24,133 bases of DNA from a virus: positions 1 through 24,133 of the IMG/VR virus record IMGVR_UViG_3300010354_000640, one strand, 5' to 3'. The first letter of the stretch is position 1; the number at the start of each line of letters is the position of its first letter. Below are positions 999 to 2,318 of the stretch, in pieces. The notes beneath the pieces are model-generated. The model ran no database searches and was not told where the DNA came from. It saw only the letters and a program-made list of their open reading frames with translations. Position numbers and translations under genes: made by a program.

Positions 999-1373
999 AT
1001 GCCTTTATTAGTTGGTCCAGTAACTCCAGACACAACATCAATTAATGGTCCATGCACATATCCTGCTAAACCAGTGTCTGGTGCATTTACATCACCAAAT
1101 ATAAGAGTCAATAAGCAATCTTTAAAATATTTACATAATTTAATACCACCAGATACTGTAAATGGTGTTCCTAACAATCCTTTGATACCCTGTGTTATTC
1201 CAGTGGCAATCAGAAAGGTAGTAACATCAAAAAATCAGACAGTATATTTCAATAAACTGCTAGCAGCTGTACAAGGTGATGCTACAGAACTGACATCATT
1301 TCCTGGAACAAAGAGAGTTTTCGTTGCTCCGTTTCAACATCCGAATCTTTTTGTTGCCAATAAAGGGAAATGA
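999..1373 (+). CDS. PAAR-like protein, possible spike tip (gp5.4-like)
   Basis: This 124-residue protein is rich in Pro, Val and Asn and looks like all-beta structure. The segment QTVYFNKLLAAVQGDAT resembles the PAAR signature in which a strand with 'V..NG..AA..GD' precedes a turn. An earlier NIRVNKQSL strand and a Cys-Pro-rich early region (NGPCTYPAKP) also fit. PAAR proteins form a small cone that sharpens the membrane-piercing spike; in T4 this is gp5.4, encoded between gene 5 and gene 6. Here the gene is also just upstream of gp25 and gp6, which supports the call. The match is degenerate and the usual metal-binding His/Cys set is not obvious, so the assignment is tentative. AGAGGA at 978-983 is rather far from the ATG at 999 to act as its ribosome binding site. 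The 3' end contains the -35 element of the next unit. Confidence 0.55.
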   Translation: MPLLVGPVTPDTTSINGPCTYPAKPVSGAFTSPNIRVNKQSLKYLHNLIPPDTVNGVPNNPLIPCVIPVAIRKVVTSKNQTVYFNKLLAAVQGDATELTSFPGTKRVFVAPFQHPNLFVANKGK

Positions 1374-1382
1374 TGCTATAAT
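1354..1382 (+). promoter_or_regulatory. near-consensus sigma70 promoter
   Basis: TTGCCA at 1354-1359 (five of six to TTGACA) is followed by a 17-base spacer and a perfect TATAAT at 1377-1382. This is the best host-type promoter I found in the window. The predicted start of transcription is near 1389, about 17 bases before the ATG at 1406. The promoter overlaps the last codons and stop of the PAAR-like gene. It should be read by the bacterial housekeeping polymerase, independently of the phage late sigma factor. Confidence 0.75.
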
Positions 1383-1405
1383 ATCAAAATCTTACGAGGT
1401 AATTC

Positions 1406-1552
1406 ATGGCAAAAGCAAAGATTGGTCTAGTAAAAACGAATTATGTTCCTGGCAAACCGAAAGTTACTCGTCAAGGGCGAAGCAAGAACACGCATTTGGG
1501 AGCATCTTCTCGGAATGGTAGGAAGAAACGCTACCGTGGGCAAGGAAGTTGA
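1406..1552 (+). CDS. 48-residue highly basic protein (moron-like unit)
   Basis: The ATG at 1406 follows CGAGGT (a good Shine-Dalgarno match) and opens a 48-codon frame ending at the TGA at 1550-1552. The product has 8 Lys, 6 Arg and no Asp or Glu. It starts MAKAKIGLVKTNYVPGKPKV, and the C-terminal half is Gly/Ser/Arg-rich (SSRNGRKKRYRGQGS). I recall similar short basic proteins in marine cyanophages but know no function. Such composition suggests nucleic-acid binding or a disordered ribosomal-protein-like tail. It has its own sigma70 promoter upstream and an intrinsic terminator 17 bases downstream, so it can be expressed apart from the late operon. An overlapping 65-codon frame (1324-1521) lacks a good ribosome binding site and is rejected in its favour. 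Confidence 0.8.
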   Translation: MAKAKIGLVKTNYVPGKPKVTRQGRSKNTHLGASSRNGRKKRYRGQGS

Positions 1553-1568
1553 TTAAAATTTGAGTATC

Positions 1569-1593
1569 AAACGCCATTTTTTGGCGTTTTTTT
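1569..1593 (+). terminator. rho-independent terminator
   Basis: AAACGCCA (1569-1576) and TGGCGTTT (1582-1589) form a perfect 8-bp stem around a five-T loop, and the T run continues to 1593, giving seven Ts from 1587. There is no matching A run on the left flank beyond the stem, so it should work mainly on the + strand. It lies 17 bases after the stop of the 48-residue gene and would stop transcripts from the promoter at 1354-1382. Confidence 0.9.
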
Positions 1594-1687
1594 ATGGAAA
1601 TAACCGAATACTTGCGAGATTTCTCGATATTTTCGGGATAGCAACCCCGTAAAAAGTTCTGTTTTACACCTTTTTGGAGAAAAACAG
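1594..1687 (+). promoter_or_regulatory. structured leader before the 63-residue gene
   Basis: This stretch between the terminator and the ATG at 1688 contains three potential hairpins in a row: CGAG/CTCG (1615-1618 with 1623-1626), CGGG/CCCG (1634-1637 with 1646-1649) and GTAAAA/TTTTAC (1649-1654 with 1662-1667). The second and third share G1649, so they would compete there or stack. GGAG at about 1676-1679, eight bases before the ATG, is a good ribosome binding site. No convincing promoter is visible. I could not match it to a known riboswitch; the key conserved stretch I remember from glutamine riboswitches is absent. It may simply be an untranslated leader. Confidence 0.35.
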
Positions 1688-1879
1688 ATGGCAAAATACC
1701 AAGTTGACCGAGATTCTGAGTATATGAAACAAAATTGGGGCACTACAAAGCTCATTACTGACTATGGGGCGTTGACTCCGACAAATAAGAAGAGGGCAAA
1801 CGACCCACCAGAAGATAGAATGACACGACCATGCGGTGGAGCAGGTGGATTTGATGATTATGTTGAGTGGTGGGCATGA
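1688..1879 (+). CDS. 63-residue hypothetical protein
   Basis: The ATG at 1688 has GGAG eight bases upstream and the frame ends at the TGA at 1877-1879. The protein is hydrophilic. It begins MAKYQVDRDSEYMKQNWGTT, has a basic turn (TNKKRAND) and ends with a Gly-rich, acidic-aromatic tail (GGAGGFDDYVEWWA). There is a single Cys near the C-terminal third. I do not recognise the family, and no membrane segment or signal peptide is present. It sits alone between the terminator at 1569-1593 and the late-promoter boxes at 1897-1916, so its expression must come from read-through or from an unrecognised promoter in its leader. Confidence 0.75.
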   Translation: MAKYQVDRDSEYMKQNWGTTKLITDYGALTPTNKKRANDPPEDRMTRPCGGAGGFDDYVEWWA

Positions 1880-1896: not shown

Positions 1897-1916
1897 CATA
1901 AATAATAACATAAATA
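1897..1916 (+). promoter_or_regulatory. tandem late-promoter boxes before gp25
   Basis: CATAAATA occurs twice as a perfect direct repeat, at 1897-1904 and 1909-1916, offset by 12 bases. It matches the T4-type late -10 element TATAAATA at seven of eight positions, and NATAAATA is the form described for cyanophages. No -35 box is needed for such promoters. The second box would start transcription almost at the gp25 ATG (1926), leaving little or no leader; the first would leave roughly 15 bases. Confidence 0.7.
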
Positions 1917-1925
1917 GAGTGTTTT

Positions 1926-2318
1926 ATGCCCCAATTTAAGCAATTTAAAGACTTAAGCATAACATTTGACAAGCATCCTCAGAGCAGAGACCTTTTGGTA
2001 GTCAAGAATGAGAATGCAATCAAGATGGCTATTAAGAATTTAATAGTCACAATGAAGGGTGAAAGGTTTTTCAACAGTAGTTTTGGCACTTCTGTGTCTA
2101 ATCTACTGTTTGATAACATGGATTTTGGTATTGCTGGTCAGTTACAGAACGAAATTAGTCTTGCAATTGCCAAATATGAGCCAAGAGTTAATTTAACGAA
2201 CGTAACTGTTCTACCAAATTTTGATAACAATGGTTATGATGTAGAAGTTGAATTTGAAATCAAGGGCATTGATATCATTCCAACAAATATGGAATTCTTT
2301 TTAGAGAGAACTAGATAA
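1926..2318 (+). CDS. 25: baseplate wedge protein gp25
   Basis: This 130-residue protein is close to T4 gp25 in length (132). It carries the GPW/gp25 fold features: an N-terminal strand region, a helical segment beginning KNENAIKMAIKNLI, the GERFFNSSFGTSV turn after the first helix, and the YEPRV motif (about residues 83-87). The EPR motif is conserved in gp25 and sheath-initiator proteins of contractile machines. In T4, gp25 sits in the inner baseplate, contacts the gp6-gp7 bundle and seeds the first sheath layer. The start follows the late boxes at 1897-1916; only a weak AGAG lies about seven bases upstream. The gp6 gene starts one base after the stop, indicating co-expression. Confidence 0.95.
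   Translation: MPQFKQFKDLSITFDKHPQSRDLLVVKNENAIKMAIKNLIVTMKGERFFNSSFGTSVSNLLFDNMDFGIAGQLQNEISLAIAKYEPRVNLTNVTVLPNFDNNGYDVEVEFEIKGIDIIPTNMEFFLERTR

Follow-up and report, generated by a model that had tools for sequence, protein, structure and literature searches.

The morons of temperate phages, such as the lambdoid ones, carry their own sigma-70 promoter and terminator inside an otherwise transcribed block, and in phage T4 the small early genes repEA and repEB, which have host-polymerase promoters, lie at oriE among late genes. Here we analyzed a locus that resembles both, in the 24,133-base virus record IMGVR_UViG_3300010354_000640 (the whole record is hereafter called the window). It consists of a host-type promoter, a 48-codon basic gene of the family PHROG 516 and an intrinsic terminator, and a preliminary description had read it as a moron-like unit. 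The closest described proteins are Syn9 gp96 and S-PM2 p079 (T4-LIKE GC 394), direct homologues of the same length that occupy the same place before the baseplate wedge gene gp25 and share with the window protein the motif TRQG-x-S/G-x-N/H-T-...-SRN-xx-K/R-K-x-YRGQG. No function has been described for this family, and many of its members, unlike the window gene, have no host-type promoter and terminator. Core cyanophage genes of unassigned function are numerous, and timing of expression is a strong clue to function. We favor, with moderate confidence, the reading that in some lineages the host polymerase expresses this gene early and that the product is a conserved cationic nucleic-acid-binding protein.

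The promoter, ribosome binding site, small basic gene and terminator previously placed at 1354-1593 were all found. In the promoter, the -35 box TTGCCA (1354-1359) is separated by 17 nucleotides (nt) from the -10 box TATAAT (1377-1382), and an extended -10 TG is present at 1374-1375 (TGC precedes TATAAT), with a predicted transcript start near 1389. The -35 box lies within the final codons of the PAAR-like gene upstream, whose stop codon falls in the spacer. A 20-kb scan returned only three sites with 11 of 12 promoter matches, and this site alone among them has the TG. The scan yielded 134 promoter-like sites against 105.8 in shuffled sequence (standard deviation 11.0) and no excess of terminator-like sites. 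Because the promoter excess is slight and terminators stand at the shuffled expectation, evidence from a single sequence is weak by itself.

Comparison across relatives indicates that the host-type promoter is real. For 103 dereplicated loci, the best sigma-70 position weight matrix (PWM) score within 110 nt upstream of the gene was recorded, with a threshold of 9 or more. Upstream of PHROG 516 this score was reached in 35% of the loci. The control values were 3% each for the regions upstream of gp25, upstream of gp6 and further upstream, and 1% each for the interior of gp6 and for shuffles. Similarly, 46 of 103 loci have TGnTATAAT with at most one mismatch at 12-45 nt ahead of the ATG, but only 17 of 497 shifted windows do. 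The promoter sequences vary by lineage (TTGACA-17-TACAAT, TTGGCA-17-TATAAT, TGTGCTATAAT and others), while the distance from the -10 box to the ATG stays mostly within 22-31 nt despite differing surrounding sequence, which argues for promoter turnover under constraint, beyond mere relatedness. On the gp6 tree the promoter trait needs 11 changes, compared with 29.7 when shuffled; it is present in 35 of the 46 rows of the window's clade and in none of the 23 rows of another clade. S-PM2 has 30 strong sigma-70 sites in the forward and 6 in the reverse direction, sparse in structural regions. One site lies just upstream of its psbA (TTGACG-17-TGCTATAAT), with the same TGCTATAAT -10 box, and ATATGCTATAAT precedes the ATG of its PHROG 516 homologue. 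Taken together, the comparative enrichment, the clade distribution and the S-PM2 site pattern make transcription by the host polymerase likely.

The gene itself is well conserved. The open reading frame (ATG at 1406, stop codon at 1550-1552) encodes 8 Lys and 6 Arg, no Asp or Glu, and a protein with an isoelectric point of about 12. The PHROG 516 profile covers its full length (residues 1-47 against profile positions 1-47 of 48), and tblastn identified homologues in 449 phage records, all with cyanophage names except five called 'Marine virus'. The 131 distinct variants are 43-50 residues long, every one has a net charge of +10 to +15, and the alignment shows no variation at Q23, G24, K41 or the GQG of positions 45-47. 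Ratios of nonsynonymous to synonymous substitution between the window gene and its relatives are mostly 0.04-0.18, so this is a real gene. In 171 of 174 fetched T4-like loci, gp25 follows on the same strand and begins no more than about 1.5 kb downstream. This sample was collected via the PHROG 516 gene, so that phages without it would be under-represented; P-SSM2, picked independently and with no homologue annotated, has a copy nonetheless (locus L189, 11820-11957, about 71819-71956 of the P-SSM2 record). Given this near-constant downstream neighbor, PHROG 516 is a core, syntenic gene and no occasional insert, and a search of the relatives did not bear out the proposal that it comes and goes as an insertion or deletion between the PAAR-like gene and gp25. 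The family is near-universal among viruses of marine cyanobacteria.

Homologues were also detected in other genomic settings. S-TIM66 (genus Aurunvirus) is an unrelated cyanomyophage, and it carries the promoter-gene-terminator arrangement: its gene (locus L405, 4960-5150) follows speD near psbA/psbD, TATGATATAAT with an extended -10 lies upstream, and a terminator overlaps the stop codon. Among cyanophage-like contigs, the gene stands beside nrdB and nrdA in L180 and adjoins tRNA genes in L373 and L349; in the siphophage S-CBS4 it adjoins tail-fibre genes and is followed by a terminator-like hairpin. Because these contexts differ, a role tied to the T4 baseplate is unlikely, and the earlier proposal of an autonomous cassette is strengthened at this deeper level. 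A cellular homologue was considered and rejected: the 12 matches in genome assemblies all lie on contigs of metagenome-assembled genomes (MAGs), and 11 of these contigs carry gp25, most of them also gp6. The twelfth, L180, is phage-like, with nrdA/nrdB and a tRNA; although labelled as a Microbacteriaceae MAG, it is probably a mis-binned phage.

Downstream of the gene, a stem-loop at 1569-1589 (-10.8 kcal/mol, z -2.9) is followed by a T run to 1593. Strong terminators follow PHROG 516 in 26 of 103 loci, compared with 15 of 471 control windows. Thus, the promoter and terminator that had been proposed for the gene exceed chance, being enriched in relatives and recurring in S-TIM66, which supports autonomous expression. 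Both elements are present in 9 of the 103 loci, the promoter only in 40, the terminator only in 19 and neither in 35. With both together in only 9 loci, the complete promoter-gene-terminator unit belongs to the closer kin of the window virus. Where the upstream tiny-gene region meets the gp25 block, a more fitting picture is that of a boundary between transcription units, at which promoters and terminators come and go. The late surroundings formerly described were confirmed in part. Late-promoter-like cATAAATA boxes precede gp25, but the upstream stretch is crowded with tiny genes in Syn9, S-PM2, P-SSM2 and P-HM1, so that 'at the start of the late block' is more exact than 'inside' it.

Pfam, PDB sequence and profile searches with the 48-residue protein gave no match. 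AlphaFold2 returned a mostly unstructured model with one low-confidence C-terminal helix (mean predicted local distance difference test score 58). The composition and charge of the protein, together with its unchanging Gly/Arg/Lys motif, suggest that it binds nucleic acid or the ribosome. In the window phage and much of its clade, the unmodified RNA polymerase of the host would read the gene from its extended -10 sigma-70 promoter, which lies within the final part of the preceding gene. The resulting monocistronic mRNA of about 205 nt would end at 1593, and transcripts running in late from upstream may contribute more. The product would be a small, largely unstructured protein with a strong positive charge, needed before the onset of late gene expression, and would probably bind nucleic acid (RNA, DNA or the ribosome). 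We infer promoter activity, early timing and nucleic-acid binding from sequence; in the window virus and many relatives, the protein can probably be made before the neighboring tail genes switch on. Retention of a host-type promoter while the sequence turns over, together with occurrence as a cassette in an unrelated phage type, makes this tiny core gene a good candidate for an early factor in host interaction.

Several observations weigh against this reading. About half of the relatives have no recognizable promoter, from which it follows that early expression is not universally required; none was recognized before the gene in Syn9, P-SSM2, P-TIM40, S-RIM2, S-RIM8, S-ShM2 and S-CAM8. Promoter and terminator co-occur across relatives no more often than expected by chance, and no structural or family match that would give the protein a function was found. 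In many cultured phages without the promoter the gene sits tight behind its upstream neighbor, starting only a few bases past it in Syn9, S-RIM2 and S-CAM8, and in Syn9, P-SSM2 and S-RIM2 it is probably co-transcribed with that neighbor. Such arrangements, along with the near-constant gp25 synteny, would be expected if the gene simply belonged to the PAAR-gp25 late block and were expressed late, through read-through or by the late polymerase, with the sigma-70 site adding little. We consider this unlikely: strong promoters show a 10- to 30-fold enrichment here and hold their spacing from the ATG while the sequence turns over, and other phage types carry the gene without PAAR or gp25 nearby. 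The copies among photosynthesis, nucleotide-metabolism or tRNA genes in S-TIM66, L180 and L373 also speak against a small virion component made in bulk (a baseplate or injected internal protein), for which the baseplate neighbors in T4-like phages and the tail-fibre neighbors in S-CBS4 could be cited. A host-type promoter would be unusual for a structural gene, and the xxE motif, a possible echo of prohead-protease cleavage, is absent from the window protein; the idea of a prohead-protease substrate was rejected on this ground, and a virion role in general seems improbable.

The moron reading held for the promoter-gene-terminator architecture and for mobility at a deep level, as in S-TIM66, but not for a sporadic insert or for coupling of promoter and terminator across relatives. 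In its strict form, a cassette newly inserted between PAAR and gp25, it could draw on that architecture, on the homologues in unrelated phages and on base composition: the G+C content at third codon positions (GC3) of the gene is 0.35, against 0.18 in the PAAR-like gene and 0.20 in gp6, and exceeds all 5,000 simulations using the neighbors' codon usage. The two downstream genes, however, share the raised GC3 (0.38 in phrog_1414 and 0.34 in gp25), so that these three genes (0.34-0.38) stand apart from the PAAR-like gene, gp6 and three large downstream genes (0.15-0.21). The shared junction with gp25 already largely refutes a recent insertion, which was therefore rejected and has very little chance of being correct. 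Equally remote is the proposal that the early promoter mainly makes an RNA primer for replication in the manner of T4 oriE. The likeness of early genes among late genes would favor it; against it, no direct repeat family (iterons) was found at 950-1950, and this candidate was rejected on that account. Moreover, the coding sequence is under purifying selection, and the promoter is missing in many relatives. Early expression by the host polymerase remains the reading that we prefer for the window and much of its clade.

The features of the locus are listed below; the gene order is PAAR-like, PHROG 516, phrog_1414, gp25. The PAAR-like label agrees in position with the annotated PAAR gene of S-RSM4 and S-ShM2, on which the weak identification mainly depends; the profile match to phrog_281 is poor (E 0.013). 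A perfect 11-nt inverted repeat (AAATTGGGGCA / TGCCCCAATTT, at 1732-1742 and 1927-1937) spans the phrog_1414-gp25 junction. Elsewhere in the window, 302-487 encodes a 61-residue MazE/AbrB-like DNA-binding protein (Pfam MazE_antitoxin, E 1.1e-8; phrog_661), for which no partner toxin was identified.

Features at the PHROG 516 locus of the window and the basis of each assignment
Feature	Position	Strand	Basis
PAAR-like small gene	999..1373	+	phrog_11361; weak phrog_281 PAAR; same position as annotated PAAR gene in S-RSM4, S-ShM2
Sigma-70-type promoter, TTGCCA-17-TATAAT, extended -10	1354..1382	+	sequence and comparative support
Ribosome binding site, GAGG	1396..1399	+	sequence
48-residue basic protein gene, PHROG 516 / S-PM2 T4-LIKE GC 394	1406..1552	+	profile E 2.9e-20; purifying selection
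Intrinsic terminator, 8-bp stem, loop of 5, T run	1569..1593	+	folding and comparison
Conserved RNA leader, outside the promoter-gene-terminator unit	1634..1687	+	motif conservation, covariation, folding
63-residue gene, phrog_1414, preceded by RNA leader	1688..1879	+	open reading frame and profile match
Two cATAAATA late-promoter-like boxes upstream of gp25	starts 1898 and 1910 (1898..1916)	+	sequence
gp25 baseplate wedge gene, constant downstream neighbor	1926..2318	+	profile matches; synteny

The adjacent RNA leader reads CGGG-AUAGCAAC-CCCG-UAAAAA-GUUCUG at 1634-1661, that is, a CGGG/CCCG stem with loop AUAGCAAC, a UAAAAA linker and a GUUCUG tail, followed by a second hairpin up to the start codon of phrog_1414. 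The motif GATAGNAACC occurs between PHROG 516 and gp25 in 116 of 174 loci, and a looser pattern search found a single copy per record having it (15 of 18). Its geometry is nearly fixed: a 4-bp stem around loop AUAGNAAC, a 6-nt linker (118 of 121) and a GUUCUR tail, with the start codon usually 18-29 nt beyond the tail. The first stem covaries over 57 distinct cores; the whole structure gives 35 double-change cells against 8.4 in shuffled data, and slid versions all collapse. Tail and loop are complementary, so that an H-type pseudoknot is a possible fold; the bases concerned are almost invariant and hence outside the reach of covariation. In 55 of 69 cases the second hairpin has greater stability than shuffled sequence; in some copies it would pair the same tail with the ribosome-site region, so that a two-state switch is possible. 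About half of the copies have a TAAATA late-promoter core whose end lies 4-8 nt ahead of the stem, which would place the leader at the very 5' end of a late mRNA; the window leader has no such core. A wider role may be envisaged, though we regard it as rather doubtful: in several unrelated marine cyanophage lineages, PHROG 516 would serve as a general factor in takeover or expression, a tiny cationic protein that binds RNA or the ribosome. The GUUCUR tail, pairing either with the loop of its own hairpin or (in some copies) with the ribosome-site region, would form a switch that acts on the start of the gp25 transcript.

At the gathering score, Rfam gave no match to the leader in the window, Syn9 or other relatives, and none was obtained with its models of manA, wcaG and PhotoRC-II, cyanophage RNA motifs named in Weinberg 2010 (PMC2864571). 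Supported by covariation and absent from Rfam, the leader is a concrete target for probing. It resembles the T4 gene 32 leader pseudoknot and the gene 43 operator in being a short structured leader before a start codon with pseudoknot-compatible pairing, and its loop holds CAAC or UAAC, as does the gene 43 operator or its variant from systematic evolution of ligands by exponential enrichment (SELEX) (PMC3014915); we take the loop resemblance to the gene 43 operator as a lead only. The leader precedes a small gene ahead of gp25, whereas the T4 elements precede gene 32 or gene 43.

The comparison of the PHROG 516 unit with the systems named at the outset likewise brings out differences. No sequence match to repEA/repEB was found, and the iterons of that system have no counterpart at 950-1950 of the window; T4 repE is transcribed opposite to the late genes, whereas the PHROG 516 gene lies on the late strand. 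Morons are sporadic between close relatives, whereas PHROG 516 is itself core and syntenic, and it is the promoter and terminator around it that are gained and lost.
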